Part shown: piece after piece, positions 6,356-50,919 of the stretch
How the letters are laid out: each line of letters opens with the position of its first letter
Numbering within the stretch: position 1 is the first letter of the stretch
Assembly (NCBI GenBank): GCA_947625045.1
Contig: CANQMW010000011.1
Coordinates: forward strand, 1 to 64,000
From: an uncultured Oscillospiraceae bacterium
GTDB lineage: Bacteria > Bacillota > Clostridia > Oscillospirales > Oscillospiraceae
Direction: 5' to 3'
DNA: 64,000 nt
The notes under the pieces: model-generated
Databases searched by the model: none
Seen by the model: only the letters and a program-made list of their open reading frames with translations
Told to the model about the DNA's origin: nothing
Program-made: the position numbers and the translations under genes

Positions 6356-7918
6356 TTATTGGATGCTCGTGATCAGCGCCTCGGCGCACTTGAGGCCGTC
6401 CACGGCGGCGGACATGATGCCCCCGGCCCAGCCGGCCCCCTCCCCGCAGGGGTAGAGTCCCGCGAGGGCGGGAGATTGGAGGGTGTCTGTGCGCAGTATG
6501 CGCACCGGGCTGGAGGAACGGGTCTCCGGGCCGGTGAGCACTGCCTCTGGGTCCGCGAAGCCGCGGAGTTTCCTGTCGAAGACGGGCAGGGCCCCGGCGA
6601 TGGTGCCTGTTATGACCGGGGGCAGGACGGTGTGCAGGTCGACTACCGTCACGCCCGGCTCGTAAGAGGGCCGCACCTGGCCGAACCGGGAGGGGCCGCC
6701 TGTCAGGAAGCTGCCCACGGTCTGGGCCGGGGCCCGATAGCCGCCTCCAGCGGCCTCATAGGCCCGCCGTTCCAACTCCCGCTGCCATGCCACGCCTCCC
6801 AGCACCCCGGGATAGGGGAAGTCCTCCGGGGCCAGGGCCGCCAGCAGAGCGGCGTTGGAGTTAACATAATTTCTTTTATAAGGGCTGGCTCCGTTGGTGC
6901 ACACCATCCCCGGCTCGCTGGCGGCGGGGACCACTTCGCCCCCGGGGCACATGCAGAAGGTGTAGCACCGGCGGCCGTCCGGCAGCTCCGCGGCCAGGGC
7001 GTAGTCCGCCGGGGGCAGGGCGGGGTGGCCGGCGAAGGGGCCGTACTGGGCCCTGTCCGTATCGGCCTGCAAATGCTCGATGCGCACGCCCATGGCGAAG
7101 GGCTTGGGGGCCATAGGGATAAGTTTACATAAAAATTCAAATGTGTCCCTTGCGCTGTGGCCGCAGGCCAGTATCAACCGGGAGCAGGGGAGGGTCTCGG
7201 CGCTGGTGACGGCGGCGGTGAGGCGGCCGTGGGCCGTTTCCAGCGCCTCCAGGCGGGTGGAAAAGCGCACCTCGCCGCCCAGGGCTTCGATGCGCTTTCG
7301 GATGTTGGCGCATACGCCGGGGAGCAGGTCCGTGCCGATATGGGGCTTGGCGTCATACGTTATGTCAACCGGCGACCCGGCCTCCGCCAGCCGTTCCAGC
7401 ACCCAGGGGATGCGCCGGTCCTTCACGCCGGTGGAGAGCTTGCCGTCGGAGAAGGCACCGGCGCCGCCCTCGCCGAACTGGATGTTGCTCTCGGGGTCCA
7501 ACACGCCCTCCCGACGAAGGCGGGAAACTTTCTCCGCCCGGGCGGCGGCGTCCTCGCCCCGCTCCAGCACGATGGGCCGGAGCCCCGCCATGGCCAATGC
7601 CAGGGCCGCGAACATCCCCGCCGGACCGAAGCCCACCACGATGGGCCGGTCCTCCGGCAGGAACGCCGGGACAGGGGGCGCGTAGTTATTTACCGGGGCA
7701 GGGGAGGCGTCCCGGCACCGGGCCAACGCGCTGGCCTCGTCCCGGGCGGTCACGTCCAGGGTGTACACGAAATGCACGTCCGACTTCCGCCGGGCGTCCA
7801 CCGCCCGCCGGACTATTTTTATGTCGGACACCTTCGTCTTTAAGATCTGTTCGGCCCTGTCCCGCAGGGCCTCCCGGGGCTCGTCCAGGCCCAGGGCCAC
7901 ATTCCGCAGCCGGATCAT
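6356..7918 (-). CDS. NAD(P)/FAD-dependent dehydrogenase, COG2509-like
   Basis: This 520-residue flavoprotein has an N-terminal module of about 80 residues, then the dinucleotide-binding motif VVGFGPAGMFAAL near residue 92. Further FAD-contact regions follow (IQFGEGGAGAFSDGKLSTG) and a C-terminal LYPCGEGAGWAGGIMSAAVDG block that is diagnostic of the family. The physiological substrate is unknown for most members. The ATG at 7918 was chosen because it forms an ATGA overlap with the stop of the upstream flavoprotein gene. The gene carries three copies of the A+T-rich motif TTATGTNAAC (6860, 7123, 7360). Two of these fall where the local residues (KRNYVNSNA, FEFLCKL) use codons unlike the rest of the gene. 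Confidence 0.9.
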   Translation of the reverse strand: MIRLRNVALGLDEPREALRDRAEQILKTKVSDIKIVRRAVDARRKSDVHFVYTLDVTARDEASALARCRDASPAPVNNYAPPVPAFLPEDRPIVVGFGPAGMFAALALAMAGLRPIVLERGEDAAARAEKVSRLRREGVLDPESNIQFGEGGAGAFSDGKLSTGVKDRRIPWVLERLAEAGSPVDITYDAKPHIGTDLLPGVCANIRKRIEALGGEVRFSTRLEALETAHGRLTAAVTSAETLPCSRLILACGHSARDTFEFLCKLIPMAPKPFAMGVRIEHLQADTDRAQYGPFAGHPALPPADYALAAELPDGRRCYTFCMCPGGEVVPAASEPGMVCTNGASPYKRNYVNSNAALLAALAPEDFPYPGVLGGVAWQRELERRAYEAAGGGYRAPAQTVGSFLTGGPSRFGQVRPSYEPGVTVVDLHTVLPPVITGTIAGALPVFDRKLRGFADPEAVLTGPETRSSSPVRILRTDTLQSPALAGLYPCGEGAGWAGGIMSAAVDGLKCAEALITSIQ

Positions 7919-8346
7919 GGCGCGTCCTCCAAAAGGCCCCCGGCGGCCAGACCCGCCAGCCGCCCGCTGGACCAGGCCCACTGCAGGTTATAGCCTCCGC
8001 AGTCCCCGTCGATGTCCAGCACCTCGCCGCAGGCATAGAGCCCCGGCACCAGGCGGCTTTCCATGGTCTCAGGGTCGAACCCGGCGGTCTCCACGCCCCC
8101 GGCGGTGACCTGGGCGTCGTCGAAGCCCAGCGTGCCCGTGAGGGGCAGCTCGTAGCGGGTGAGGGCCTCCGCGATCTGTTCCAAGGCCCGGTCGGACAAT
8201 GCCCACAGCCGGGCTTCCAGGGGGATGCCCGCCCGGCGGAGAGCCGCCCGGGCGATCGAATTATGTAAAGCACCGCTCAGGATGTTTTCCGCCTTTTGGT
8301 CGGAAAAATCGTCTCTCTTGGCGGCAAGATATTCAATTATGTCAAC
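6860..8346. repeat. Cluster of TTATGTNAAC motifs
   Basis: Exact copies lie at 6860-6869 (complement), 7123-7132 (complement), 7360-7369 and 8337-8346, with a one-mismatch copy at 8261-8270. All are inside the two flavoprotein genes, in both orientations and with unrelated flanks. See findings. Confidence 0.7.
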
Positions 8347-9147
8347 TTCATCCATCTCCGGCAGCAGCCGCAGGCACAGGACATGCCCCGGCCCCGCCAG
8401 GGAGGCGGCCCGGGAGATGTCATAGGCCCCTGGGCCGCTGACGCCGTAGTCGGTGAACTGGACCTCTCCGCGGGCGGCGGCCAGTATCTCCCCGTCCCGT
8501 TCCAGGGTGAGGCCCGCCTGGGTGCGCACGCCCTTCAGGGGCCGGGTCCAGGTGTTGTCGGTCTTGAGCTGCACCAGGGAGGGGTAGAGCTCCGTCCGCC
8601 GGTGGCCGAAGAATGCCAGCAGGTCGTAGCCCAAGCTGACGCCGCCGAGGCGTGCTCCGGCGGCCCCGCCGCAGGCGATGATGAGCCTGTCCGCGGTGTA
8701 TTCCTCCCCCAGCTGGCCGGTGAGGAGGAAGCGGCCGCCGGTCTTCTCTGCCCGGACGATAGTCGAGGCGCAGGCGGTCTCGCCGCCCCGGGCCTCCAGG
8801 GCCAGGCGCAGCACGTCCACCACGCTCCCGGCGGTGTCCGAGAGGGGATAGACCCGCCCGGAGGGCTCCGCCGTGGTGACGAGCCCCAGGGAGGCGAACC
8901 AGCGCAGGGTGGCCTCCGGCCCGAAGCGGTAAAGGGCCGGACCGGCGAAAGCCGGGTCCTGGCCGTGGTAGTTGTCCAGAGACGCGCCCATATTGGTCAG
9001 GTTGCAGCGGCCGTTGCCGGTGGCCAGCAGCTTCCGGCCCACCCGGTTCTGCCGCTCGAAGACCGTGACATGATTGTCCAGGCTTTCCCGGGCGGCCAGC
9101 GCGGCGGCCAGCCCCGAGGCGCCCCCGCCGATGACGGCGATGTCCAT
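7915..9147 (-). CDS. NAD(P)/FAD-dependent oxidoreductase, BaiN/HI0933 family
   Basis: This is a 410-residue flavoprotein. The FAD-binding motif GGGASGLAAALAA is at residues 7-19 and the family signature ATGNGRCNLTN is near residue 42. The C-terminal DIDGDCGGYNLQWAWSSGR region closes the FAD site. Homologues include the bile-acid locus protein BaiN and many proteins of unknown role, so the reaction cannot be assigned. It overlaps the next flavoprotein gene by 4 bases, so the two are probably co-translated. One exact copy (8337) and one near copy (8261) of the TTATGTNAAC motif lie within it. Confidence 0.92.
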   Translation of the reverse strand: MDIAVIGGGASGLAAALAARESLDNHVTVFERQNRVGRKLLATGNGRCNLTNMGASLDNYHGQDPAFAGPALYRFGPEATLRWFASLGLVTTAEPSGRVYPLSDTAGSVVDVLRLALEARGGETACASTIVRAEKTGGRFLLTGQLGEEYTADRLIIACGGAAGARLGGVSLGYDLLAFFGHRRTELYPSLVQLKTDNTWTRPLKGVRTQAGLTLERDGEILAAARGEVQFTDYGVSGPGAYDISRAASLAGPGHVLCLRLLPEMDEVDIIEYLAAKRDDFSDQKAENILSGALHNSIARAALRRAGIPLEARLWALSDRALEQIAEALTRYELPLTGTLGFDDAQVTAGGVETAGFDPETMESRLVPGLYACGEVLDIDGDCGGYNLQWAWSSGRLAGLAAGGLLEDAP

Positions 9148-9198
9148 GTGGATCCCTCCAAACTATTATCTGACCGACGGGCGGTGAGTTTCTGTGCT

Positions 9199-9330
9199 GG
9201 CCGCCCTATGCCAGTCCGACGCCCGGCGGGAGCCGCCAGTGTGCCGGATGCGGTTGGTGAGCGTAGCGAACTTTAGCAGCAGGCATACTGTCGGGCCCGT
9301 CCGGGCAAAACCTGCATTGTGCTTGGGCGG
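9199..9330 (+). repeat. Dispersed repeat, long form (copy A)
   Basis: This noncoding repeat is bounded by GGCCGCCC at one end and GGGCGG at the other. Its core is CGGTTGGTGAGC followed by GCGAACTTTAGC. It is closely matched, inverted, by 55262-55386. A shorter related form lies at 44079-44180 and 55160-55261. It sits between the stop of the 9356 gene and the start of the 9147 flavoprotein gene. Confidence 0.8.
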
Positions 9331-9355
9331 CCCATATGAAAAACGGACGAGGGGT

Positions 9356-9565
9356 TCACCTTCGTCCGTAATACCTGTCGATCTGACGCTGCTCGTCGTT
9401 GATGAGCCACCGGGTGGCGAACAGGAGCCTGTCGGAGTAATAGCCCACCCGCCGGCGGTGGAAAAACTGCTTGGGGTCGTTGAGGAAGTCGGATACCTTT
9501 TCGCCCCGGACCATGCGCTTCGCGTCCCGCAAAATGCGCTTTTCCGTGGATATCTGCCGTGCCAT
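9356..9565 (-). CDS. Small basic protein, unknown function
   Basis: This encodes 69 residues, strongly basic, with many Arg/Lys and Tyr and no membrane segment or signal peptide. AAGGGGG lies 9-10 bases before the ATG, which supports real translation. It stands alone between the riboflavin transporter and a dispersed repeat. I do not recognise a domain; the charge pattern would suit nucleic-acid or ribosome association, but this is a guess. Confidence 0.65.
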   Translation of the reverse strand: MARQISTEKRILRDAKRMVRGEKVSDFLNDPKQFFHRRRVGYYSDRLLFATRWLINDEQRQIDRYYGRR

Positions 9566-9666
9566 GGCGTCCGCCCCCTTTCCGCCGCTATGATAGCATG
9601 GCAGGCCACAAAAGTCAATGCCGCCCCCGTTTTGGCGGGAGCGGCATGACGTTAACGCGGTACGCT

Positions 9667-10347
9667 TTACAGCACGCCGAGGAGCACCAATATCAGCAGC
9701 ACGCCGGTGGCTACCAGGGCCACGCCCAGGATGAGCGCGCCGGTGTGGACCTTGCCGGTGCCGCCGGAGCCGGAGGATTCCTCCACCAGATGGGCCTTGC
9801 GCAATGCGGTGACCACGGGCTTATAGAGCAGCAGTGTGAGGCCCGCGTTGATGGCCCCTTTCACCAGGTTGAAGGGGAGAAACAGCGTGGGCAGCATGGA
9901 GGCCACCACCTCCCGGGGCACGCCCTGATAGAGGGGGGTCACGATGTAGTTCCAAAGGCACATCATGGCGGCCATCACCGCCACGCCGGCGGCCAGGCTG
10001 CCGATGGCGCCCTTCATGCTGTGGGCCTTTTTGTAGATGAGGGCCGCGGGCACGGCGAAGGAGCAGGTGGATACCACGTTCATGAGAAAGCCCACAGGGC
10101 CGGTGCTGGACACGGTGAGCATCTCCACGAAGCTGACGATGACGGAGATAATGACGGCGGTGAGGGGCCCGAAGATGAAGCCGCCTATGACCACGATCAC
10201 GTCCTTGGGGTCGTAGCTGAGGATGCCCTGCACGGCGGGGACTACCTGGCCGATGAGCATGGCCGCGTAGGCCACGGCGCAGAGCATGCCCACGGTGGCG
10301 GGCCGGCGGGCGCTGGCATGATGGGTGTTGACGGGGTTGCTGTCCAT
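9667..10347 (-). CDS. ribU: Riboflavin ECF transporter substrate-binding component
   Basis: This is a 226-residue membrane protein with about six helices, matching the S component of energy-coupling-factor vitamin transporters. It has the RibU-like stretch DPKDVIVVIGGFIFGPLTA and the C-terminal LPFNLVKGAINA. The substrate is assigned mainly because the leader contains an FMN riboswitch with a terminator directly before the ribosome site. The shared EcfA/EcfA'/EcfT energising module is not in this window. The C-terminal Ser/Gly-rich linker and extra last helix (residues about 190-226) extend beyond the usual S-component length. Confidence 0.92.
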   Translation of the reverse strand: MDSNPVNTHHASARRPATVGMLCAVAYAAMLIGQVVPAVQGILSYDPKDVIVVIGGFIFGPLTAVIISVIVSFVEMLTVSSTGPVGFLMNVVSTCSFAVPAALIYKKAHSMKGAIGSLAAGVAVMAAMMCLWNYIVTPLYQGVPREVVASMLPTLFLPFNLVKGAINAGLTLLLYKPVVTALRKAHLVEESSGSGGTGKVHTGALILGVALVATGVLLILVLLGVL

Positions 10348-10363
10348 GGAAGGATACCTCCTG

Positions 10364-10409
10364 AAAAAATATTGACGCCTGGAAGCCCGTGTGCCTTCCA
10401 GGTGTCAAT
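10364..10409 (-). terminator. Riboswitch expression-platform terminator
   Basis: On the minus strand, a 15-bp stem (10395-10409 with 10371-10385, one mismatch or G-U pair) is followed by six T residues at 10364-10369. The ribU ribosome site AGGAGG begins immediately afterwards. This is an OFF-type transcription terminator downstream of the FMN aptamer. Confidence 0.88.
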
Positions 10410-10469
10410 ATGGGGCCGCGTTCCATGGGCGCGGGCAAGGCCCGCCGCCATTAGCAGCGCCGCTCAACA

Positions 10470-10594
10470 CATCTTCTTCCATCCAGACTGTCACTGTCGG
10501 TCCCGGAGTTCCACCGGGTCAACGCACAATACGAATACCATACGCTCGCGGACTGTACCGCCGATCGGGAATTTCACCCTGCCCTGAAGACATC
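10470..10594 (-). promoter_or_regulatory. FMN riboswitch aptamer (RFN element)
   Basis: The conserved RFN blocks are present in order on the minus strand: TTCAGGGCAGGGTGAAATTC, then CCGATCGGCGGTA, AGTCCGCGAGC, TTGACCCGGTGGAA, CCGACAGT and ACAGTCTGGATGGAAGAAGA. The element lies between a sigma-A promoter and the terminator before ribU. FMN binding should shut off riboflavin uptake. Confidence 0.96.
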
Positions 10595-10617
10595 GTTGCT
10601 TTTCAGTTGTCGGCTAT

Positions 10618-10646
10618 ACTATAGCACCATCGGTCAGGCAATGCAA
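10618..10646 (-). promoter_or_regulatory. Sigma-A promoter for riboswitch-ribU transcript
   Basis: On the minus strand, -35 TTGCAT (10641-10646) and -10 TATAGT (10618-10623) are separated by 17 bp. Transcription would start about 20 bases before the aptamer. Confidence 0.75.
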
Positions 10647-10658
10647 TACCAAAAATCG

Positions 10659-11693: not shown

Positions 11694-11726
11694 GGCATCT
11701 CCTTTTGTCACATGGTATCGACTGCC

Positions 11727-16421: not shown

Positions 16422-16466
16422 ATAATACAACACCGCCTCCCCGATAGGGAGGCGGTGTTGTATTAT
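16422..16466. terminator. Bidirectional intrinsic terminator
   Basis: A perfect 20-bp stem (16422-16441 with 16447-16466) has a 5-base loop and A+T-rich ends on both sides, between convergent genes. A TTATGTNAAC motif (16463-16472) overlaps its right end. Confidence 0.92.
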
Positions 16467-16472
16467 GTCAAC

Positions 16473-17378
16473 TTAATCCACTTCAAAGCGGAACATGCCG
16501 GCGGTGCCCTCGGGGGTGTCGGGGGCGTACTGGACGGTGACGTCGTAGGTGCCGGGCAGCAGGAACATGGCGGCCTTGGCCCGCAGGTCCTGCCCGCCGC
16601 CGAAGGCGGCGCCTATTTTGCCGTCCTCGTCCGTCACGGTGATGTCCACCATGGCGTCGGTGTCCGCCTCTGCGTCCAGGGTGTAGAAGTCGGGCAGGTG
16701 CACATCGAAGGACCAGGTCCAGGGGCCCGCGGCCGGGTCATAGATATACTCGCTGTAGGAGTCGGCATGGATGCGGAAGAAGCTGTAGACGAGCCCCACG
16801 GCCAGCAGGAGGAACACCAGCGCGAAGCACCAGCGCAGGCTCTTCCGGGGCTTGTCCGTATCCTGACGGCGGATGCGCCGGGCCCCTGTCAGGATCGTGA
16901 CGCCCAGCATAAGGCAGGCAAGGGTGGTGAGGATGCCGGTGACGGAGGGCTCGCGAAAGGCCATCAGGGCGTTGAGCACGGTCACCGCCAATTCTATGAC
17001 GCCCAAGGTGGTCCCCAGGCGGCTCCAGCGGCCCGCCATGTCTCGCACCGACTGCTCGTCGGTGTAGATCTCATACTCCGTTGGGGGCAGGGCGGGGTCG
17101 TATTTTTTGCGGAAGAAGTGCCAGCCGTTGAAGGTGTCGCTGACGAACTCCCAGCCCTGCTCGGCGAAGGTGTCCCGGTAGCGGACCGGGTCGTCGATGC
17201 TCTGGTCATAGTCCAGGGCGTAGCGGTAGCGGGCGTTCTCATCCCGATAGAACACGCTGTGGAAACAGCCGCCCTTTTCCAGCTGCCAGCCCTCCTCCGA
17301 GAGCTTATTCAGGTCCTCCACCTCCCGCCGGTACTCCCAGGCGGGATACATGACATAGCGATGCTTTTTATTCCTCAT
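16473..17378 (-). CDS. DUF2812 domain membrane protein
   Basis: This is a 301-residue protein. Its N-terminal cytoplasmic region carries two copies of the DUF2812 pattern: YRREVEDLNKLSEEGWQLEKG near residue 17, and DTFAEQGWEFVSDTFNGWHFF near residue 68. About three membrane helices follow (about residues 123-160 and 183-203), then a C-terminal beta-rich extracytoplasmic domain. DUF2812 genes are commonly linked to PadR regulators, as here, where the two overlap by 11 bases. The role is unknown; it may be a membrane target or sensor for the regulator. Confidence 0.88.
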   Translation of the reverse strand: MRNKKHRYVMYPAWEYRREVEDLNKLSEEGWQLEKGGCFHSVFYRDENARYRYALDYDQSIDDPVRYRDTFAEQGWEFVSDTFNGWHFFRKKYDPALPPTEYEIYTDEQSVRDMAGRWSRLGTTLGVIELAVTVLNALMAFREPSVTGILTTLACLMLGVTILTGARRIRRQDTDKPRKSLRWCFALVFLLLAVGLVYSFFRIHADSYSEYIYDPAAGPWTWSFDVHLPDFYTLDAEADTDAMVDITVTDEDGKIGAAFGGGQDLRAKAAMFLLPGTYDVTVQYAPDTPEGTAGMFRFEVD

Positions 17379-26608: not shown

Positions 26609-26686
26609 GCCCAATGGCAAGGCGCGCGGCGTCTTGCTCACCCGATATGTCTTGGAAAAATACATTACATAAAGGAGATGCGCCTT

Positions 26687-30250
<3,564 letters not shown>

Positions 30251-33023: not shown

Positions 33024-33293
33024 ATGCCTTTCGATAAAGCCAATGCCCCTGCGGACGCCACCGGCCGCGCGCCGGCGAAGCCCCGCAAGCGCCGCAAGGT
33101 GTGCCAGTTCTGCGTGGACAAGATGACCCACGTGGACTACAAGGACACCGCCCGGCTGCGCAAGTACCTGTCCGAGCGCGGCAAGATCCTGCCCCGCCGC
33201 ACCACCGGTACCTGCGCCATGCATCAGCGCCAGCTGACCACGGCCATCAAGCAGGCCCGCCAGATCGCGCTGCTGCCCTATGTTGCTGACTAA
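33024..33293 (+). CDS. rpsR: 30S ribosomal protein S18
   Basis: This 89-residue protein contains the conserved [31 protein letters not shown] core, described by its key parts FCVDK, DYKDT and ERGKILPRR. An N-terminal basic extension precedes it. It is the last gene of the operon and ends just before a strong terminator. Confidence 0.97.
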
Positions 33294-33330: not shown

Positions 33331-33345
33331 ATGCCCGAAGTTAGT

Positions 33346-34578
33346 TTACATAATCGCTTGGCCCTGCATGAACCAGTAGTTGTAGAGGAAGAAAAACGCA
33401 AGCTCGGCCACGAGGATGAAGGCCCGGACAGCGGGGTGTTTGAGCCGGCCGACGCTGAGGTACAGGGGAAGGCACCCCAGCATGTACCGGCCGCCGCTGA
33501 TGAGCCATCCGGCGGTGTAGCACATGCCGAGATAGGCGGTGCCGTAGAGGATATAAGCATTGTCCAGTTCCCGCCGAAAGCCTGCCATGAGCAGCGCCGC
33601 CGCGATGAAATAGAGGGCCATCTGGGGCCAGTAGATCCAGGGGGCGACGCCGGGATAGGCCACGGCCATGGTGAACTGCTGGGCCAGGGTGTCCCCCAGC
33701 CACTGGGCGGTCTGGTACCAGGGCGCGCTGGCCTCATAGCCCTTGAAGGCGAAGAAACTGCCGCACACGGCCTTGTTGAGAAGAAGATAGATGCCAAAGC
33801 CCAGGAGCGGCCCCAGCAGGGCCAGGGCCCCGGGCTGCCATTTTTTATCCTCCCGCATGGCCCGCCAGGCCATGTAGACGCCCGGCAGGAGCAGCAGCAC
33901 GCCCTGGACCCGGGTGAGGGCGCAGAGAAGGCCCACACACCCCGCCCCCAGCCATTTCCGCTCCCCCATGAGGTACAGGGCGGACACGGTCAGCAGCAGG
34001 AAGAGCCCCTCCGTGTACACCCCCTGGGCGAAGAAGCCGAAGGGATAGAACCAGTAGGCCATGAGCGCCGCGCCGGGGCAGGCGCACTCCTTTTTTGCGA
34101 GGCGGGCGAATACCACGGCGGAGAAGCCATAGCAGACCTGGGACACGATGAGCCCCGCGAGAGCCGTCCTGCCGCCCAGTGCCGCGCCCAGCAGGCCCAT
34201 GAGCGCGGGGTAGAGGGGGTAAAAAACGATGTTTATCACGTTTTCCCCCGCGGGCACATAGCCATTTTCGGCGATGAAGCGGTAGCGCTCCGCGTCCCCG
34301 GCGGTGGTGAACCGGTCCCAGTAGTGGGCGAAAAAGCCCGCGGCGCTGCGGGTGAGGGCCAGGTGAGCAATAAAGGCACCCAGCCACAGAATGGCGAGGG
34401 ATACGGCGAAAATGCAGGGACAGGGCCAGTCGGCCGGGGAGAGCTTCTCCGGCAGGGGGAGGTCCGGAGCGGGTGCTTTCAGCTCTTTCCCCAGCAGCTC
34501 CCGCCAGGCCCGGAGGGCCAGCATGCCCAGCAGCGCCAGCATCGCCGCCGTGGACCCCACCCAGAGCATCCGTGTCAT
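33346..34578 (-). CDS. Multi-spanning membrane protein, PIG-V-like mannosyltransferase
   Basis: This is a 410-residue protein with about ten membrane helices. After the second helix, the loop WDRFTTAGDAERYRFIAENGY and then VFYPLYPALMGL resemble the catalytic loop and FxPLYP motif of PIG-V-type GT-C glycosyltransferases using lipid-linked sugar donors. The start at 34578 has GAGGGG upstream. An open frame continues far past it but has no coding character and overlaps the neighbouring gene. It ends a BlaI-M56 operon. The stop codon lies inside a TTATGTNAAC motif. Confidence 0.78.
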   Translation of the reverse strand: MTRMLWVGSTAAMLALLGMLALRAWRELLGKELKAPAPDLPLPEKLSPADWPCPCIFAVSLAILWLGAFIAHLALTRSAAGFFAHYWDRFTTAGDAERYRFIAENGYVPAGENVINIVFYPLYPALMGLLGAALGGRTALAGLIVSQVCYGFSAVVFARLAKKECACPGAALMAYWFYPFGFFAQGVYTEGLFLLLTVSALYLMGERKWLGAGCVGLLCALTRVQGVLLLLPGVYMAWRAMREDKKWQPGALALLGPLLGFGIYLLLNKAVCGSFFAFKGYEASAPWYQTAQWLGDTLAQQFTMAVAYPGVAPWIYWPQMALYFIAAALLMAGFRRELDNAYILYGTAYLGMCYTAGWLISGGRYMLGCLPLYLSVGRLKHPAVRAFILVAELAFFFLYNYWFMQGQAIM

Positions 34579-35822: not shown

Positions 35823-37211
35823 TTAGATGATGGGCTCCGCTGTGGGTTCTGGAGTCTGGGGCACGGGGGCGGGCGTGGCTCCGTCGGGGATGACCGGCGG
35901 CGTGGGCGTCAGGACCTCCGGGCCGCCATGGACCACAGGCGGCGTCGCGGGGGCCCAGGGGATGGGCGAGGGCGTGGCTCCGTCAGGTATGGCATCCTCA
36001 GGGGGCGGCGGCGTGGGTTCCGCCATGGGCTCCTCCGTGGGCTCCGGGGTATACACCGGCTCCACCTCCACGGGGGCGGGGGTGCTCTCCGGGGTGGGCG
36101 TTGGCTCTGCCGCAGGCAGGGCCGCGGCGGTGGCCGCTGGGGCCTCATAGGTCCGCACCGCGGCCGCGGCCGTGGGCGCGGGAGTCCCGGTGGGGACGGG
36201 CGTTAAGTTTACATAATTAGCTTCCGGCCTCTCTGTGGACCGGGCGGGGACGACGGTCACGTAGGCCACGGGGGTAGGCGTGGGCATGACGAACCCCTCG
36301 GAGAGCCGGGGCGGGGACAGGGGCGCGCTCTCCGCCGCTGCGGCGAACACCGTGGCGGACAGGAGCACCAGTGCTGCCGCTGATACCACGCTCACCGCTC
36401 CGGCGGGGCGAAAGCGCATGATCTGGCGGATGCGTTCCCGGACGGCCTTGGCCCCAAAGCCGGAGAGCAGCGGGCTCAGGGTCCGGCGCTCCTCCAATTC
36501 GATAAGGGCCATAGCGTACCCCGCCCGGCCGTCCCGGGCCCGGCGGAGCACCGCCTCGTCGCAGCTTAGCTCGATGTCCCGCCCCGCCAGCACATACATG
36601 ACCCAGGCCAGGGGGTCGAACCAGTGCAGGCATACCGCCGCTGTCAAGAGGTATTTGAAGGGGATATGAAACCGGCGGATGTGAGTAAGCTCATGGGCCA
36701 GGATGTACGCAAGCCGCCGCCTGTCCCGCCGGTCCAGGTCCGCGGGCAGCAATATGACCGGCCGGAATACGCCGTAGGTCAGGGGTGTGCCCAGCCCCTG
36801 GCACAGGCGGACGGATACATGCCGCCGGGGGAGAAAGCGCTGTACGAACCGCGCCGCGCCGGGGTCATCCAGAGGCAGCGCCTCCCGGTAGCGGCGCATA
36901 GCGCGGAGGTGGCCAAAGAGGAACCATCCGGCGCAGAGGACTGCGCCCGTGAGCCACGCTGCCGCGGCCCAGGGAAAGGCGTTTTGTACCGGCGCGGGCG
37001 CTGCCTGGGCCACCGCCCGGTAGGCCGCCGACACCGGCGCCGCCGGGGCGGGCACGGTGAGGGAGAAGGGCAGCACCATCCGTATGGCTGCCACCAGCCA
37101 CAGGGCCGTGAAGGTCCGCTTGGGCAGCTTTTCCAGCCACAGGGCCCGCAGCAGCGCCGTGAAGGCGATCAATACCGAGGCCTGGGCCGTCATCTCCAGG
37201 AGCCTGGTCAT
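35823..37211 (-). CDS. M56-family (BlaR1-like) membrane peptidase
   Basis: This is a 462-residue membrane metallopeptidase. N-terminal helices precede a cytosolic protease domain with the zinc motif HELTHIRRFHIPFKY (near residues 194-208) and the downstream acidic ligand region ELSCDEAVLRRA. A transmembrane helix near 285-305 leads to an extracytoplasmic tail of about 150 residues made of Pro/Thr/Ala/Glu repeats instead of a penicillin-binding sensor domain. In the BlaR1/MecR1 systems such proteases lead to BlaI inactivation. It overlaps blaI by 4 bases. The signal sensed is unknown. Confidence 0.92.
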   Translation of the reverse strand: MTRLLEMTAQASVLIAFTALLRALWLEKLPKRTFTALWLVAAIRMVLPFSLTVPAPAAPVSAAYRAVAQAAPAPVQNAFPWAAAAWLTGAVLCAGWFLFGHLRAMRRYREALPLDDPGAARFVQRFLPRRHVSVRLCQGLGTPLTYGVFRPVILLPADLDRRDRRRLAYILAHELTHIRRFHIPFKYLLTAAVCLHWFDPLAWVMYVLAGRDIELSCDEAVLRRARDGRAGYAMALIELEERRTLSPLLSGFGAKAVRERIRQIMRFRPAGAVSVVSAAALVLLSATVFAAAAESAPLSPPRLSEGFVMPTPTPVAYVTVVPARSTERPEANYVNLTPVPTGTPAPTAAAAVRTYEAPAATAAALPAAEPTPTPESTPAPVEVEPVYTPEPTEEPMAEPTPPPPEDAIPDGATPSPIPWAPATPPVVHGGPEVLTPTPPVIPDGATPAPVPQTPEPTAEPII

Positions 37212-37668: not shown

Positions 37669-39093
37669 CTATTTTGCGGCCCGCTGATAGCTCGCGCTCA
37701 CCTGGGCCCATGGCCTGCCGGCGGGCATGTCCGCCTCCTCACCCAGCGCCCGGAGGGCGGGCAGGGCGTCGGCGCCCAGGGACCGGAGATAGCCGGCGTC
37801 CACCTCTGTCAATTGGCCGGAGAGGTACCGGTCCGCGTTGTAGTTCGCGATGAGGCGTCCCGGCCCGGCCAGGGCCATGACGCACCATAGCCCCAGGGCG
37901 AAGAGGCCCGCCGCCCGGAAGAAGGATGCGCCGGGGCGGCGGAGCTTCCAGCCTGCCATGAGGATGCCGAAGGCGATGACCGCCATGGCCCAGAGGGTCA
38001 GCAGCCGCAGCACGCTGAGACCAAAGGCGTCGATGTAAAGGCACATCCGCCGGAAGGCGGAGGCCAGGATCACCGCGGTGAGGGCCAGCAGCAGAGCATA
38101 GAGCCCCCGCAGGAGCTTTCCGCCATGGGAGGCGAAGCGCTCTTTATCCGTGCCCGCGAGGCACAGGGTCAGATTGATGGCCGCCACGGCCACCAGCTGG
38201 AAGAACCCGGACCGGGCGTACTCCGCCCAGCCCCCGGCCATGGACGCCTCCGCAGCACCGCCGAAGAGGTACTTGATCTGGATATAGCAGAAAATTATGT
38301 AAACTATATCCAGCGCCGCCGTCATGCCCAGAAACAGCACCGCCCGCCGGGGTCTGCCGAGATATTCCGCCGCCCTGGGGGTAGGGGCCTCACGGATAAA
38401 GTACAATGCCGAGGCGAGGAACAGCGCCGTCGTTAAGGTCCGGAGAGGTCGGAAAATACGGCCTATGGGAAAGTCCGGGCGGAGGCGGGAGAAGAGGTCG
38501 GAGAACACCGCGTCCGCGCTGGATAAGAGCCACAGCACCACCGCCGCCACCGGCAGGGCGAGGAGCACCGACGCGGCGGCATAGCCCAGCTTTTTCCGAT
38601 CTGCCCGCCGCCCAAGCTGGCCCAGGGCCCGGAAGGGCCGCCCAAGCCGGGTGCACAGGGCCAGGATGGACAGCGTCACCGCGTCGAAGATGGCCCGGGG
38701 CCGGCAGCAGTCCGTCCGGCCCGCCAGGGCGAAGGTGGCCATGGCGGCGGTGAGAAGGATGACCAAGCAGTTCAGCGCCGTGAAGATGGGCTCGTCCCAC
38801 AGGGCGCAGGCGAGCGCCGACAGGAGGACGGCGGCCACGCAGACCACCGCGCCGGGGGAGAGCCGGGCCCGGCGGCCCAGGGCAATGAACACCGCGGCGA
38901 AGTGGGCGCACACCAGCGCGGTCACCCCCAGGTGGGGCAGGCCGAAGTCCAGCATCCGCACGAAGTCGAAGTTTGCCCAGAAAAGCCACGCCAGCCCGAT
39001 CGCCAGCGCCGGGATGGCTCCGTCCCGCCAGGAGAGGGGCTCCGCCAGCGTCGATTTAGTTTCCATAATATATTCTTGCTTTGCCTCGTCCAT
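37669..39093 (-). CDS. DUF4173 family membrane protein
   Basis: This is a 474-residue protein with about eleven to twelve membrane helices and the DUF4173 signature GGWAEYARSGFFQLVAVAAINL near residue 285, shown here by its parts YARSGFFQL and AAINL. The C-terminal part is soluble. GGAGG is 10 bases before the ATG. It is the last gene of an operon with an XRE regulator and three DUF2975 proteins. The biochemical role of the family is unknown. Confidence 0.88.
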   Translation of the reverse strand: MDEAKQEYIMETKSTLAEPLSWRDGAIPALAIGLAWLFWANFDFVRMLDFGLPHLGVTALVCAHFAAVFIALGRRARLSPGAVVCVAAVLLSALACALWDEPIFTALNCLVILLTAAMATFALAGRTDCCRPRAIFDAVTLSILALCTRLGRPFRALGQLGRRADRKKLGYAAASVLLALPVAAVVLWLLSSADAVFSDLFSRLRPDFPIGRIFRPLRTLTTALFLASALYFIREAPTPRAAEYLGRPRRAVLFLGMTAALDIVYIIFCYIQIKYLFGGAAEASMAGGWAEYARSGFFQLVAVAAINLTLCLAGTDKERFASHGGKLLRGLYALLLALTAVILASAFRRMCLYIDAFGLSVLRLLTLWAMAVIAFGILMAGWKLRRPGASFFRAAGLFALGLWCVMALAGPGRLIANYNADRYLSGQLTEVDAGYLRSLGADALPALRALGEEADMPAGRPWAQVSASYQRAAK

Positions 39094-39097
39094 GGCG

Positions 39098-39301
39098 TCA
39101 GTCCTCCCGGTATTCCAGGATGTCCCCGGGCTGGCAGTCCAGGGCCCGGCAGATAGCGTCCAGGGTGGAAAACCGCACGGCCTTGGCCTTTCCGGTCTTA
39201 AGGACGGATAGGTTCGCGATGGTGAGGCCCACCCGCTCCGCCAACTGGGTCAGGCTCATGTGCCGCCGGGCAAGCATCACATCAAGGTTAACATAAATCA
39301 T
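39098..39301 (-). CDS. XRE-family regulator, YozG-like
   Basis: This is a 67-residue single-domain HTH protein: LARRHMSLTQLAERVGLTIANL then VRFSTLDAICRALDCQPGDILEY. Proteins of this short type commonly sit beside DUF2975 genes, as here. It lies 4 bp before the DUF4173 gene. It probably binds the palindromes in the promoter of its own operon at 40941-40997 (inference). Confidence 0.94.
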   Translation of the reverse strand: MIYVNLDVMLARRHMSLTQLAERVGLTIANLSVLKTGKAKAVRFSTLDAICRALDCQPGDILEYRED

Positions 39302-45840: not shown

Positions 45841-45862
45841 TTATTAAATTTTCCGAAGGACA

Positions 45863-45896
45863 GGGACGTTGGACAGGTTCCAACGTCCCATTTTTC
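45863..45896 (+). terminator. Intrinsic terminator
   Basis: The 10-bp stem GGGACGTTGG/CCAACGTCCC is followed by ATTTTTC. Confidence 0.88.
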
Positions 45897-45933
45897 GGGC
45901 TTTTTGGCCCGTGGGCCTGTCCATGTCGCGGCG

Positions 45934-45962
45934 TTGACAAAGCCGGGGCGGATGGATATACT
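45934..45962 (+). promoter_or_regulatory. Sigma-A promoter of the Mrp-type gene
   Basis: -35 TTGACA (45934-45939), 17-bp spacer, -10 TATACT (45957-45962). Confidence 0.83.
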
Positions 45963-46000
45963 ACCTCTTGGACCAATCTTAAATATAGGAGTGAAAATAT

Positions 46001-46819
46001 ATGAGCGAGACGTGTTCCCATGACTGCTCCAGCTGCGGGGTGGACTGCTCCCAGCGCACCGAGCCTTCCAGCCTTTTGGAGCCTTTGAACGAGGCCTCCC
46101 GGGTAGGCAAGGTCATCGCCGTCGTCAGCGGCAAGGGCGGCGTGGGCAAGAGCATGGTGACCTCCATGCTGGCGGTCAGCGCCGCCAAGGCGGGGAAAAA
46201 GGTGGGCGTGCTGGACGCGGATATCACCGGCCCCTCCATCCCCACCGCCTTCGGCGTCCACGCCAGGCCCCAGGCCACGGAGAAGGGCCTGCCCGCCCTG
46301 GTGAGCCGGGACGGCGTGAAGATCATGAGCATCAACCTGCTTCTGGACAGCGAGACCGACCCGGTGGTGTGGCGGGGGCCCATCATCGCCTCGGCGGTGA
46401 AGCAGTTCTGGACGGACGTCATCTGGGGCGACCTGGACTATATGTTCGTGGACATGCCTCCCGGGACGGGGGACGTGCCCCTGACGGTGTTCCAGTCCCT
46501 GCCCATCAGCGGCGTGGTGGTGGTCACTACTCCCCAGGACCTGGTGGGCATGATCGTGGAAAAGGCCGTGAACATGGCGAAGATGATGAATGTGCCCGTG
46601 CTGGGTCTGGTGGAGAACATGGCCTGGTATGAGTGCCCCTGCTGCGGGCAGAAGCTGCCCATCTTCGGCCAGAGCCACGCCGAGGAGCAGGGCATGCGCC
46701 TGGGCATCGGCAACACCGTGAGCCTGCCTCTGGACGCCACGATCGCCGCGGCCTGCGACAGCGGGAAGGTGGAGGACGCGGACGTGTCCCGGCTGTGGGA
46801 GTTCTCCCAGCGGCTGTAA
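46001..46819 (+). CDS. Mrp/NBP35-family P-loop ATPase (Fe-S carrier)
   Basis: This 272-residue protein has an N-terminal Cys cluster (CSHDCSSCGVDC, near residues 5-16), then the deviant Walker A GKGGVGKS near 45. VLDADITGPS and the Mrp-typical DYMFVDMPPGTGDVPLT follow, and CPCCGQ near 212 completes a second Cys pair. Members bind and transfer 4Fe-4S clusters to apoproteins. AGGAG precedes the ATG. It is followed 24 bp later by a two-component system, but probably functions separately. Confidence 0.94.
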   Translation: MSETCSHDCSSCGVDCSQRTEPSSLLEPLNEASRVGKVIAVVSGKGGVGKSMVTSMLAVSAAKAGKKVGVLDADITGPSIPTAFGVHARPQATEKGLPALVSRDGVKIMSINLLLDSETDPVVWRGPIIASAVKQFWTDVIWGDLDYMFVDMPPGTGDVPLTVFQSLPISGVVVVTTPQDLVGMIVEKAVNMAKMMNVPVLGLVENMAWYECPCCGQKLPIFGQSHAEEQGMRLGIGNTVSLPLDATIAAACDSGKVEDADVSRLWEFSQRL

Positions 46820-46843
46820 ATCCGGCGGGAAAGAGAGGAGCCC

Positions 46844-47497
46844 ATGATACGTATCCTGGTGGTGGAGGACGAACGGCCCATCTCGGACCTCATACGCATG
46901 AGCCTGCAGAAGGCGGGCTATGAGTGCGCCTGCGTCTACGACGGGCTGGCCGCGGCGGATACGCTGGAGACGGAGCGGTTTGACCTTATCCTGCTGGACG
47001 TGATGCTCCCCGGCGTGGATGGCTTCGCCCTCATGGACTATATCCGGCCCCTGGGCATCCCGGTCATCTTCCTCACGGCGAAAAACGCCCTGGACGACCG
47101 GGTGAAGGGCCTGAGGATGGGGGCGGAGGACTATATCATAAAGCCCTTTGAGGTGCTGGAGCTGCTGGCCCGGGTGGAGGTGGTCCTGCGCCGGTATAAC
47201 AAGCTGGACGAGGTGCTGCACGTGAGCGGGCTGGACATCGACACCCGCTCCATGACCGTGGCCCGGGACGGGGAGGACATCCCCCTCACCGCCAAGGAAT
47301 ATGAGCTGCTGCTCCTCTTTGCCCGCAACCCGGGCGTGGCCCTGTACCGGGAGACCATTTACGAGCGGGTGTGGGGCGGCGACTATATGAGCGGCAGCCG
47401 CACCGTGGACCTGCATGTCCAGCGCATGCGCCGGAAGGTGGGCTGGGAGGACCGTCTGGTGGCCCTGCCCAAGGTGGGCTACCGCCTGGAAGCGTAA
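46844..47497 (+). CDS. OmpR-family response regulator
   Basis: This is a 217-residue regulator. The receiver has phospho-acceptor Asp52 (LLDVMLPG), acidic residues VEDE near 7-10, and Lys100 in IIKPFE. The winged-helix DNA-binding domain (about 120-217) contains LTAKEYELLLLFARNPG and SRTVDLHVQRMRRKV. It is followed after 6 bases by its kinase. Confidence 0.96.
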   Translation: MIRILVVEDERPISDLIRMSLQKAGYECACVYDGLAAADTLETERFDLILLDVMLPGVDGFALMDYIRPLGIPVIFLTAKNALDDRVKGLRMGAEDYIIKPFEVLELLARVEVVLRRYNKLDEVLHVSGLDIDTRSMTVARDGEDIPLTAKEYELLLLFARNPGVALYRETIYERVWGGDYMSGSRTVDLHVQRMRRKVGWEDRLVALPKVGYRLEA

Positions 47498-47503
47498 GAA
47501 TAT

Positions 47504-48895
47504 ATGAGATTTCGACTGCGGATGACGCTGTGTATCGTGATGCTCCTGGCCCTGGTTTTCGGGGCCGGGGGCAGCATGCTCATATCTGTCTCCTTCCGGC
47601 AGAGCCTGGAAAGCGAGCGGGACACGGCCGTCCGCAGTTTCCGCATGGTGGAGAGCACTATGGTGCTGGCCAATTCCATCTCCCCCCAGACGGGCTATGA
47701 GGACCTGACGGGCACCCTGCGCCAGCTGGACAGCCAGGCCGACGCCCCCTGGAGCGGCCTGCGCCTTTCCGACGGGGAGCGGGCCCTCTATGAGAGCGGG
47801 AGCCTGCCCTTCCCGGCCCGGATGGACGGCGAGCCGGAGCTGTGCACGGTCCGCCTCTGGGCGGAGGACGGCGCGGGGATATTGCAGGTCTCCGGGGCGC
47901 TGCAGGTGAATAACTCCTACCTCTACCTGGACGCGGGGTATTCCGTGAGCCACCTCTATACCCTGCGGCAGATACAGCTGAATATCTACTACCGGCTTCT
48001 CGCGGCGGTGGTGGCCGTGGGGGCGGTCATGAGCTGGTTTTTATCCATGTACCTGACCCGGCCCCTCTATCAGCTTTCACGGGTGACGCGGCAGATCGCC
48101 GGCGGCAATCTCGCCAGCCGGGCCAACATCCGCTCAGGGGATGAGTTCGAGCAGCTGGCGGGGGACTTCAACGTCATGACCGACCGGGTGGAGGAGGACA
48201 TTGCCGCCCTGCAGGAGGCCATGCGCCGGCAGGAGGAATTCATGGGCAGCTTTGCCCACGAGATGAAGACGCCCATGACCTCCATCATCGGCTATGCCGA
48301 CCTCCTCCGGGGACAGAGCCTGACGGAGGAAGACCAGCAGAAGGCCGCCAACTACATCTTCTCCGAGGGCCGGCGGCTGGAGAGCCTGTCCTTAAAGCTC
48401 CTGGACCTGCTGGTGCTGCGCAAGAGGGACTTTGAGCTCACCGAGGGCTCCCCCAAGGCGGTGATCTCCGCCCTGGTGCAGGTGCTGCGGCCCGCCATGC
48501 TGGAAAAGGATATCATCTTGCAGTGCCGGTGCGAGGAAGGGCGGTGCCGGATGGAGCCGGACCTGGTGAAGAGCCTGGTCATCAACCTCATCGACAACGC
48601 CCGCAAGGCCATGGACGGGGCGGGAAACATCTATGTGCTGGGCCAGATGACCGATACCGGCTGCCGCATCCAGGTGGTAGACAACGGCCGGGGCATGCCC
48701 CAGAAGGAGATCAGCCGTATCACCGAGGCCTTTTACCGGGTGGATAAATCCCGCTCCCGGGCCCAGGGGGGCGTGGGGCTGGGCCTGGCTCTGTGCCAGG
48801 AGATCGTGGCGCTGCACGGCGGGACCATGGAGTTTCAGAGCGCCCAGGGCAAGGGCACCATCGTGACGGTATGTTTGAACGGAGGGCGGCTATGA
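47504..48895 (+). CDS. Membrane sensor histidine kinase
   Basis: This is a 463-residue kinase. Two membrane helices (about 8-28 and 160-185) flank an extracytoplasmic sensor of about 130 residues. A HAMP domain follows (about 186-238), then HisKA with His252 in FAHEMKTPMTSIIGYADLL. HATPase has N-box LIDNARKAMDG and G-box GVGLGLALCQEI. The sensor shows no known domain, so the stimulus is unknown. The stop overlaps the next gene by 4 bases. Confidence 0.95.
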   Translation: MRFRLRMTLCIVMLLALVFGAGGSMLISVSFRQSLESERDTAVRSFRMVESTMVLANSISPQTGYEDLTGTLRQLDSQADAPWSGLRLSDGERALYESGSLPFPARMDGEPELCTVRLWAEDGAGILQVSGALQVNNSYLYLDAGYSVSHLYTLRQIQLNIYYRLLAAVVAVGAVMSWFLSMYLTRPLYQLSRVTRQIAGGNLASRANIRSGDEFEQLAGDFNVMTDRVEEDIAALQEAMRRQEEFMGSFAHEMKTPMTSIIGYADLLRGQSLTEEDQQKAANYIFSEGRRLESLSLKLLDLLVLRKRDFELTEGSPKAVISALVQVLRPAMLEKDIILQCRCEEGRCRMEPDLVKSLVINLIDNARKAMDGAGNIYVLGQMTDTGCRIQVVDNGRGMPQKEISRITEAFYRVDKSRSRAQGGVGLGLALCQEIVALHGGTMEFQSAQGKGTIVTVCLNGGRL

Positions 48896-49671
48896 AGAGA
48901 AAGACGGCCCTTTGGCTCATCCTGACCGCCCTGGTTGTGGCAATAAGCGCCCTGCTGCCGGAGGCGGCCCTGGCCATCCAGGACGCCCGCTTGGAGGGCG
49001 CCGTGGACACCCAGCGGGTGGAGACGGTGGACCTGAGCCTGCTGGCGGAGCTCAGCATAGAGGACACCCTCTATATGGTCCAGACCTACCAGTCCCGGGT
49101 CCGGCTGGACACGGGCCGTCAGCTGAACGAGGGCCAGGCCGGCCGCATCGCGATCGACACGCTGGAGGAGGTATACGACCGGATAGGCTACGCCTCCGGG
49201 TTTTATGTGACGGACACATCGCCCTGGCTCTACGTGGGGCCGGGGGGCGAGAGCGTGGTGCTGTGGGAGGTCGCCGCCTCCGGCCAGGAGGAGGTCCCCC
49301 TGTGGGCCATGCTGGGCTATGAGGCCCTGCGCCGGGTGGACGCCACAGCCCTGGTGGACGAGCGGAGCGGACAGGTGGTGTCCCTGCGCATACGCCTGGC
49401 CGACGAGACATCCGGCGAAAGCGTGCTGCCCGACCCGGTCCCCACGGCCCTGCCCTACGGGGAGGTACCGGTGGAGGAGATACAGGACATCTCCAATGCC
49501 GTCGGCTATACGATGCTGTGGATGTTCGCGGACCGGCTGGGCCTGCGGGACGCCCCGCGGGACGTGATACAGGACGGGGAGTATGGGACGTATCTCACCC
49601 TGACCACCGACGGCGGCACGCCCTTCACCGTCACCGTCTCCTGCGACCTGAACGAACTGCGCTTCAACTGA
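48892..49671 (+). CDS. Exported protein of the two-component operon, unknown function
   Basis: This is a 259-residue protein with an N-terminal signal peptide or anchor (residues about 4-23, ending near ALLPEAALA) and no later membrane helix. The rest is acidic with regular alternating segments (DLSLLAELSIEDTLYMVQTYQSR in parts DLSLLAEL and EDTLYMVQ). ATGA overlap with the kinase gene implies joint translation. It may be an accessory or sensing partner of the kinase, but no domain is recognised. Confidence 0.78.
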   Translation: MKRKTALWLILTALVVAISALLPEAALAIQDARLEGAVDTQRVETVDLSLLAELSIEDTLYMVQTYQSRVRLDTGRQLNEGQAGRIAIDTLEEVYDRIGYASGFYVTDTSPWLYVGPGGESVVLWEVAASGQEEVPLWAMLGYEALRRVDATALVDERSGQVVSLRIRLADETSGESVLPDPVPTALPYGEVPVEEIQDISNAVGYTMLWMFADRLGLRDAPRDVIQDGEYGTYLTLTTDGGTPFTVTVSCDLNELRFN

Positions 49672-49679
49672 AAAGGGCA

Positions 49680-49709
49680 AAAAACCACCGCCCGGCATAC
49701 GCCGGGCGG
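49680..49709 (-). terminator. Intrinsic terminator of the XRE gene
   Basis: The 10-bp stem ACCGCCCGGC/GCCGGGCGGT is followed on the minus strand by GGTTTTTT. It abuts the stop codon of the regulator and lies between convergent genes. A near-identical hairpin lies at 50871-50903. Confidence 0.86.
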
Positions 49710-49910
49710 TCAGTCGTCCTTATATTCTGCTATATCTTCCAGCCGGCAGGAGAGGATACGACACAGCTGGGAGAGGGTATAGGTGCTCACATTTTCATTT
49801 TTCCGTAGCCGGTCCAGCTGGCCGCTGCTGACGTGATGGTCCTTTATGAGCTTGTATTGGGATACGCCCCGGTCCCGCATGGTGGCCCAGAGCCGGTCAT
49901 ATACGATCAT
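49710..49910 (-). CDS. XRE-family helix-turn-helix regulator
   Basis: This 66-residue single HTH protein contains MRDRGVSQYKLIKDHHVSSGQLDRL and a YozG-like end (CRILSCRLEDIAEYKDD). It is divergent from an exported two-domain protein, with overlapping promoters that carry inverted repeats. It likely regulates both (inference). The ribosome site is weak (AAGGGG 7 bases before the ATG). Confidence 0.92.
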   Translation of the reverse strand: MIVYDRLWATMRDRGVSQYKLIKDHHVSSGQLDRLRKNENVSTYTLSQLCRILSCRLEDIAEYKDD

Positions 49911-49938
49911 GGCAAAGCCCCTTCACTAGCCTTGCCAC

Positions 49939-49990
49939 TAGGATATTTTCCTATACGTTTGTTGACAATAGCCCGTGTTCGGGCTATACT
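49939..49990. promoter_or_regulatory. Back-to-back promoters with inverted repeats
   Basis: Plus strand: -35 TTGACA (49962-49967), 17-bp spacer, -10 TATACT (49985-49990). Minus strand: -35 TTGTCA (49963-49968), 17-bp spacer, -10 TATCCT (49940-49945). The -35 boxes overlap. ATAGCCCG-N4-CGGGCTAT fills the plus spacer (49968-49987), and TAGGA-N5-TCCTA covers the minus -10 (49939-49953). Confidence 0.82.
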
Positions 49991-50020
49991 TTTATCATCA
50001 AACGAAGGAGGGCTTTGAAG

Positions 50021-50860
50021 ATGAAAAAGCTTATATCCATGTGCCTGTGCCTGGCCATGATGCTGACGCTGACGGCAGGGATGGGGGTATCTGCCTTGGC
50101 GGCAGATGACTTCCAGGAAGTGACCGCGGTGGACAATGAGGTGTGCGCCGTTACCATCAAGAGCATCGACCCGGACGACATGTGGGGCTATACCCTAAAG
50201 GTGCTGCTGGAAAACCGGTCCGCGGAGACATCCTATATGTTTGCCGTGGAGAGTGCGTTTATAAACGGCGTGGAGTGCGACCCCTTTTTTGCACGGGAAG
50301 TGGCGCCCGGCAAGAAATCCAATGAGGATGTCAGCTTTAAACTTGACACGCTGGAGGAAAATGGCGTGGGCGAGCCGACGGATATAGAGATCGTCTTCCG
50401 GGTCCATGACGCCGATGACTGGACGGCGGAGGATGTGGCCCATGAGACGGTGCATATCTATCCCGCCGGGGAGGACAAGGTCCAAACATTCCAGCGGCAG
50501 GAACAGGATACGGATACGGTCCTGGCGGATAACGACGATATCTCCGTCATCGTCACCGGCTATGACCCGGACAGCCTTTGGGGCTATACGATGAAGGTGT
50601 TTCTGGCCAACAAGACGGACCGGTCGATGATGTTCGGCGTCAATGATGCCTCCGTGAACGGCTTTATGCTGGACCCCTTCTATGCCCATAAGCTGGCGCC
50701 TGGCAAGTGTTGCTTCGGCGAGGTGAACTGGTCCAACAGCGGCCTGGAGGAGAACAGCATTGAAACAGTGGAGGAGTTAGCTTTCACGCTCCGGGTCCAT
50801 GACGCCGACGACTGGACAGCGGAGGATATCTTCAACGAGGTCCTGACGCTGAATCCCTGA
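50021..50860 (+). CDS. Exported protein with two tandem homologous domains
   Basis: This is a 279-residue protein. Its signal peptide ends near VSALAA (residue 26). Two copies of a domain of about 120 residues follow. Each begins with WGYTLKV/WGYTMKV, contains a DPFF/DPFY segment followed by APGK, and ends with the shared string RVHDADDWTAED. The repeats look like beta-sandwich extracellular modules, arising from an internal duplication. The ATG at 50021 is 9 bases after GGAGG; a TTG at 50015 is too close. The function is unknown. Confidence 0.85.
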   Translation: MKKLISMCLCLAMMLTLTAGMGVSALAADDFQEVTAVDNEVCAVTIKSIDPDDMWGYTLKVLLENRSAETSYMFAVESAFINGVECDPFFAREVAPGKKSNEDVSFKLDTLEENGVGEPTDIEIVFRVHDADDWTAEDVAHETVHIYPAGEDKVQTFQRQEQDTDTVLADNDDISVIVTGYDPDSLWGYTMKVFLANKTDRSMMFGVNDASVNGFMLDPFYAHKLAPGKCCFGEVNWSNSGLEENSIETVEELAFTLRVHDADDWTAEDIFNEVLTLNP

Positions 50861-50870
50861 AACAAGCCGC

Positions 50871-50903
50871 AAAAAACCACCGCCCGGCGTATCGCCGGGC
50901 GGT
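50871..50903 (-). terminator. Intrinsic terminator of the ilvA-ridA operon
   Basis: The 11-bp stem ACCGCCCGGCG/CGCCGGGCGGT is followed on the minus strand by GGTTTTTT. Confidence 0.88.
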
Positions 50904-50919
50904 ACTATATTATGTTGAC

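Follow-up and report, generated by a model that had tools for sequence, protein, structure and literature searches.

A short word repeated in and beside genes of an Oscillospiraceae genome

The window analysed here is a stretch of 64,000 nucleotides (nt) of DNA from an uncultured Oscillospiraceae bacterium, whose nearest named relatives are likewise uncultured Oscillospiraceae. It carries genes for an FAD-dependent protein, an HI0933-like flavoprotein, a Peptidase_M56 protein and a DUF4153 protein, among others, and in or next to these genes lie nine exact copies of the word TTATGTNAAC (Table 1). We consider it likely that these copies are isolated half-sites bound by XerD, probably comparable with the XerD sites of Bacillus subtilis that unload SMC. 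An earlier note, made from the letters of this DNA, had located the nine copies, and all of them are present. Its hand estimate of about 0.1 expected copy agrees with 100 dinucleotide shuffles of the window (mean 0.09, maximum 1), and 17 matches are found versus 2.8 expected when one mismatch is allowed. The same note placed every copy inside a minus-strand gene or at its end. This stands for eight copies, which are in such genes or directly after their stop codons (that at 39287 is at the start of its gene, and that at 16463 is between convergent genes), and fails for the copy at 33344, which follows a plus-strand gene (33024-33293) that we take, from its sequence, to be rpsR-like.

The genome-wide and codon-preserving counts that the earlier note had proposed both give an excess. 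The whole genome (2.93 Mb in 73 contigs) contains 59 copies versus 9 of the reversed word, and the called genes of contig C11 (93 kb) contain 6 copies, compared with a mean of 0.44 and a maximum of 3 in 1000 synonymous-codon shuffles. Among 2000 rearrangements of the same letters, counted in 153 kb of sequence from this genome, the motif ranks first, with 13 copies versus a mean of 0.28. The open position of the word is A in 35, C in 16 and T in 8 of the 59 genomic copies, and G in none. Codon usage does not explain why the G form is missing, because GTG is the most frequent valine codon on C11 (0.635). The base after the 10-mer is T in 35 of the 59 copies, and the fuller word is TTATGT[A/C/T]AACT.

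Table 1 Putative XerD half-sites, near copies and flavoprotein genes in the window
Feature	Position	Strand	Context
Putative XerD half-site TTATGTTAAC(T)	6860..6869	-	in frame N-Y-V-N, gene 6356-7981
Putative XerD half-site TTATGTAAACTT	7123..7132	-	L-C-K-L, codons TTA TGT AAA CTT
Putative XerD half-site TTATGTCAAC	7360..7369	+	antisense to gene 6356-7981
Near copy TTATGTAAAG	8261..8270	+	one-mismatch search; inside gene 7915-9147
Putative XerD half-site TTATGTCAACTT	8337..8346	+	antisense in HI0933-like gene 7915-9147
Putative XerD half-site TTATGTCAACTT	16463..16472	+	between convergent genes, beside stop codon of 16473-17378(-)
Putative XerD half-site TTATGTAAACT	33344..33353	-	51 bp downstream of plus-strand gene 33024-33293
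Putative XerD half-site TTATGTAAACTT	36207..36216	-	in frame N-Y-V-N-L, Peptidase_M56 gene 35823-37211
Putative XerD half-site TTATGTAAACT	38295..38304	+	antisense in DUF4153 gene 37669-39093
Putative XerD half-site TTATGTTAAC	39287..39296	-	first codons I-Y-V-N of small gene 39098-39301
Near copy TTATGTTGAC(TT)	50910..50919	+	just past stop of gene 50920-51297(-)
FAD-dependent protein gene, three sites	6356..7981	-	Pfam PF21688 FAD-depend_C, 231 bits
HI0933-like flavoprotein gene, sites 8261 and 8337	7915..9147	-	Pfam PF03486, 229 bits

Identity of the word with the XerD arm of dif

According to PMC3025954, the published dif seed of Bacillus subtilis is ACTTCCTAGAATATATATTATGTAAACT, with TTATGTAAACT as its XerD arm, and the seeds of Escherichia coli and Frankia alni end in TTATGTTAAAT and TTATGTCAAGT, respectively. 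Proteobacterial XerD arms include TTATGTTAACT and TTATGTAAACT, beside others that differ, according to a table in PMC2731167. The open position is A, T and C in the arms of B. subtilis, E. coli and F. alni, respectively, which is the same set as in the 59 genomic sites. The 11-mer found here equals the known XerD arm (TTATGTNAACT, with N never G), and TTATGT[ACT]AACT is thus, judged by its sequence, the XerD half of dif. The earlier proposal of a DNA-level signal, either a binding site or a recombination motif, is therefore well supported and can be given a name. XerD very probably binds the half-sites.

The window sites share the right 11 bp with dif and differ from it in that eight of the nine copies have no dif-like left arm. 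These eight match only 0-4 of the 11 bases of the B. subtilis left arm, and no second unit is found 14 bp away from them. The left flank of the ninth copy, at 6860, matches 6 of the 11 bases, as do 2.4% of random places. Across 11 loci of the same genus (own locus included) this flank is variable, with 4-7 matches, and three of the orthologues (G001, G021 and G024) match the canonical dif pattern with 3 mismatches. Site 6860 may therefore be a full dif-like site. A search of 40 relatives for the canonical B. subtilis type of dif, with both arms and at most 3 mismatches, gave 17 matches in 14 genomes versus 20 for the control, and this candidate was rejected as being at chance level; the three orthologues of 6860 just named are among the 17.

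Sites are kept at the expense of protein sequence

Orthologues of the region 6860-7360 were compared in 74 of 100 aligned loci, those reported at above 55% identity, of which 12 belong to the same genus and 62 lie outside it. We note that L005 and L146 look like one genome and that the genus of L001-L004 and L021 was assigned from identity. With the own locus counted, site 6860 is exact in 6 of the 12 loci of the genus, has one mismatch in 5 and is lost in 1, and the word is absent at this position from all 62 loci outside the genus. Most family members have approximately R-D-G-E-N-A-N here, compared with R-N-Y-V-N-S/A-N in the genus. Site 7123 is exact in 9 of the 12 loci, with one mismatch in 2 and loss in 1. 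It uses a rare codon (TTA makes up 1.5% of leucine codons on C11), and here the genus is one codon shorter than its orthologues, not longer. Residues common in the family are thus replaced at both 6860 and 7123 of gene 6356-7981, and in this genus the word is kept at a cost to conserved protein sequence. One species of the same genus (L143, genome G002) is without both sites.

Further along, the near copy at 8261 is identical in 4 of the 6 other loci of the genus, and 5 of these 6 carry an exact copy of site 8337. The pair 7121(-)/8337(+) recurs with a spacing of 1216-1219 bp in at least 7 other genomes of the genus, among the matches listed. Site 16463 is absent from L001, the sole relative whose sequence reaches that position. 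The earlier suggestion that the copies are remnants of tiny insertions was rejected for the five aligned sites between 6860 and 8337, through which the orthologues align with no inserted bases.

The motif co-occurs with XerD

Seventy-five family genomes, each at least 95% complete, were used to compare the 11-mer with the presence of XerD, scored at an E-value threshold of 1e-78. In total, these genomes contain 642 copies of the 11-mer versus 163 for controls. The 59 genomes with an XerD match account for 616 motifs (110 control), whereas the 16 without a match hold 26 (53 control). Ten of these 16 were listed as having no match, and six (G188, G223, G278, G310, G318 and G384), which fall among 18 genomes not listed individually, were assigned from the lack of a match row; G278 and G384 were also weak for XerD in the comparison with TIGR02225. 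The motif excess differs between genomes with and without XerD (Mann-Whitney p about 1e-7), whereas the control counts are not significantly different.

The difference is also seen within genera. Genomes of genus g31 have 14, 11 and 3 copies with XerD versus 0, 2, 0, 0, 1 and 0 without, and those of genus g17 have 2 and 10 copies versus 0, 0 and 2. In genomes picked by their motif count, the TIGR02225 cut-off is passed by all six motif-rich genomes and none of the five motif-poor ones. Across the family, a match at the same E threshold is found in 248 of 286 genomes, and 213 pass the TIGR02225 cut-off. In the unsummed counts for other families of the order, many look like their controls. As a side observation, a strong XerD match is missing from seven of the listed genomes of genus g23 and from some genomes of g31 and g17, and the sampled ones among them have no motif excess.

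An array beside xerD is a candidate dif

Of 33 xerD loci scanned, 28 have three direct copies, TTATG-N8-TTATGT-N8-TTATG, with spacings of 13 and 14 bp, at a distance of 806-937 bp upstream of the gene. The 33 loci comprise 29 of the 30 top-scoring family xerD loci and four from the comparison of motif-rich and motif-poor genomes. Counting two further xerD loci, those of the own genome (L293) and G497 (L289), neither of which has an array within the 1.5 kb examined, the array is present in 28 of 35. In G497 it lies about 1.6 kb from xerD (L261). None of 60 sampled 12-kb stretches contains it. The GC-skew switch lies at or near xerD and the array in three closed genomes: in G516 and G513, xerD lies between the samples where the skew changes sign, and in G497 it lies close to the sign change, opposite dnaA. 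We take the xerD-linked array as a candidate dif, although it may also be an operator, since its left arm is unlike that of B. subtilis. As a two- or three-unit direct array, the candidate dif of this family would differ from dif of the B. subtilis type. The two-unit form occurs in 7 of 35 genomes of the genus and is found in the own genome at C34:21019-21056, which also has a weaker pair of units at C24:12364.

A one-mismatch copy, TTATGTCAAAT, stands just before the start of xerD in the own genome (L356, G000:C14:11614), where it may serve autoregulation. In L124 (G055:C9), six copies fill 86 bp (about 1932-2017) just upstream of one gene, which by eye we take to be radA-like, 6-8 kb from xerD and the array. 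Several copies are packed in and around one gene in L123 (1924-2007) and L126 (756-2362), presumably homocysteine methyltransferase-like, again by eye. A 5.7-kb contig (L132, G258:C4) carries five near-tandem repeats of about 170 bp at 1451-2136, each with the imperfect palindrome GTTTACATAA...GTAAAC or similar.

Distribution of sites along chromosomes and in genes

Sites in the own genome are grouped, with 13 adjacent gaps of at most 1 kb versus 1.15 for random placement, and groups of 2-5 sites within 1-1.5 kb are frequent. C11 is a dense zone, with 11 sites versus 1.9 expected. It contains no plus-to-minus skew switch, and its genes, mapped onto sampled stretches of three closed relatives, fall in scattered places. 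A parS site is found on the same contig as dnaA (C28), which fits a ParB-SMC loading system. Clustering was analysed in four of 11 closed or near-closed relatives, namely those with a clear excess (G513, G497, G516 and G177). In G513, the sites peak beside dif, where a 400-kb stretch holds 15 of the 38 site loci, dif itself being counted.

About 36 of the 59 genomic sites are inside called genes, 18 outside and 5 partial, and 20 of the 27 sites called as sense-strand sit in xYVN phase. The gene caller is a simple GC-phase scorer, so the 27/9/18/5 split of the 59 sites is approximate: in the window it missed gene 7915-9147, scored 8337 as sense in a spurious frame and put 39287 outside genes. 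A tRNA-Lys (97 nt) called at 28478-28574, inside the long reading frame 26678-30250, is probably a false call.

Discussion

The word TTATGT[A/C/T]AAC(T) would be an isolated half-site recognized by XerD, a tyrosine recombinase that works at dif as well, with about 59 half-sites on the own chromosome. XerD bound to half-sites that have no XerC arm should not recombine them. It would instead act there as a site-specific unloader of translocating SMC complexes, so that SMC would come off the chromosome at belts of such sites. In B. subtilis, XerD at its sites is reported to unload SMC in the terminus (Karaboja et al. 2021, as cited in PMC12322038, PMC10945525 and PMC13220808). Isolated half-sites tied to the presence of xerD are what an SMC-unloading system would need, and on this analysis we slightly favor SMC unloading as the main role of the sites.

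Like the XerD/RipX sites (XDS) of B. subtilis, the sites are isolated XerD arms that occur several times on one chromosome, and the host is a member of Bacillota that has parS and XerD. They differ in that the belts are not always at the terminus, that they form sub-kb groups inside genes, and that protein sequence has been altered to fit them; moreover, binding and unloading have been reported in B. subtilis and are predicted here. They also recall matS/MatP of E. coli, where short scattered sites rid a region of the chromosome of a condensin (PMC10945525), although protein and motif are different there, and matS marks the terminus. A literature search, to which most subscription journals were closed, found no account of XerD half-sites with SMC or dif in Oscillospiraceae; on XDS with XerD and SMC, within the same coverage, it found only E. 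coli MukBEF and nothing on Oscillospiraceae.

Several observations weigh against this interpretation. Only G513, among the four closed relatives with an excess, has its sites concentrated at the terminus. In G497, 16 of the 35 site loci form a peak 60-80% of the way from the origin, and G177 has no significant cluster among the 23 of its 27 sites that entered the analysis. In G516, contrary to a simple terminus model, 28 of 30 site loci are nearer the origin than dif: its contig C1 (L268-L277) has 42 exact sites, of which 40 surround the origin, on both arms (0.03-0.71 and 2.66-3.06 Mb), and the remaining two are at 1.009 Mb and in the candidate dif at 1.714 Mb. SMC may be halted early in the lineage of G516, or else the sites have a further function. 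PMC13342612 argues that dif itself is the primary SMC unloading site. As for co-occurrence, the 10-mer is not clearly in excess (8-18 copies versus 5-25 for controls) in seven of the 11 closed or near-closed relatives, each of the seven (G494, G493, G404, G253, G453, G465 and G243) having an XerD match, and genus g34 has no excess of the 11-mer (10 versus 10). The presence of XerD alone does not suffice for a motif excess. Conversely, the excess is not confined to Oscillospiraceae, as three genomes of family f8 in the same order hold 47 copies versus 9 for the control. Where xerD is missing, a gap in the assembly may in some cases be the cause (G016 has about 200 contigs and G233 about 100), and the statistics ignore kinship; because the family genomes are not independent, the co-occurrence of motif and xerD is strong but not proof. 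The own xerD (C14) has no array beside it. Ranked among the 10-mers of the region, conservation is in the top 2.6% for 7123, the top 15% for 6860 and 8261 and the top 25% for 8337, and site 7360 is not conserved (66%), being exact in only 3 of the 12 loci of the genus (own included). Since this conservation is modest, it is the replaced residues and the rare codons that carry the argument.

The strongest rival keeps XerD on the half-sites and gives them another role, such as anchoring or insulating chromosome domains, or regards them as remnants of Xer-integrated elements (IMEX). We regard it as unlikely but worth serious thought, because genera differ in where along the origin-terminus axis their belts lie. 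Remnants of IMEX are harder to reconcile with conservation over species and with the five aligned sites between 6860 and 8337, which show no inserted element. The word could also be the operator of a transcription factor with unusually many intragenic sites, one of whose targets would be the array beside xerD. The dense arrays upstream of genes in some relatives, such as the six copies in L124, the one-mismatch copy just before the own xerD and the array itself would suit such a factor. An operator is nevertheless improbable in our judgment, given that the majority of the own sites are inside called genes and that the word is identical to the XerD arm of dif and follows the presence of XerD.

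Two further explanations fare worse. A restriction or methylation motif would account for a fixed word on both strands and would not be expected to be grouped locally, to be conserved over species or to be identical with a dif arm, which makes it very improbable. Frequent Tyr-Val-Asn tripeptides could leave the word as a by-product of coding, as the preponderance of xYVN phase among sense-strand sites and the many C-form sites in G516 and G513 that read YVN might suggest. We rejected this explanation, which retains hardly any probability, on the synonymous shuffles and on the missing G form, which should be the most frequent one (GTG is 63.5% of valine codons); YVN has, moreover, been gained where relatives mostly have DGEN.

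Returning to XerD half-sites that unload SMC, the belts might determine where SMC-driven alignment of the chromosome arms ends, and the distance between belt and origin would then vary among genera of this gut family, with the belt in one case around the origin itself. We put this forward as a rather doubtful conjecture. If true, the reach of chromosome folding would be an evolvable, sequence-coded trait that overrides conserved protein sequence. If XerD does recognize the word, binding would be expected at TTATGT[ACT]AACT but not at TTATGTGAACT. The removal of SMC from bacterial chromosomes has been worked out in detail in only a few species, and Oscillospiraceae now offer a family-wide, readable map of likely XerD sites, in which some genera hold genomes that lack both the XerD match and the sites. 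This map makes it testable whether unloading by XerD is general, whether it requires the terminus, and in what way a need for DNA binding can reshape protein sequence.

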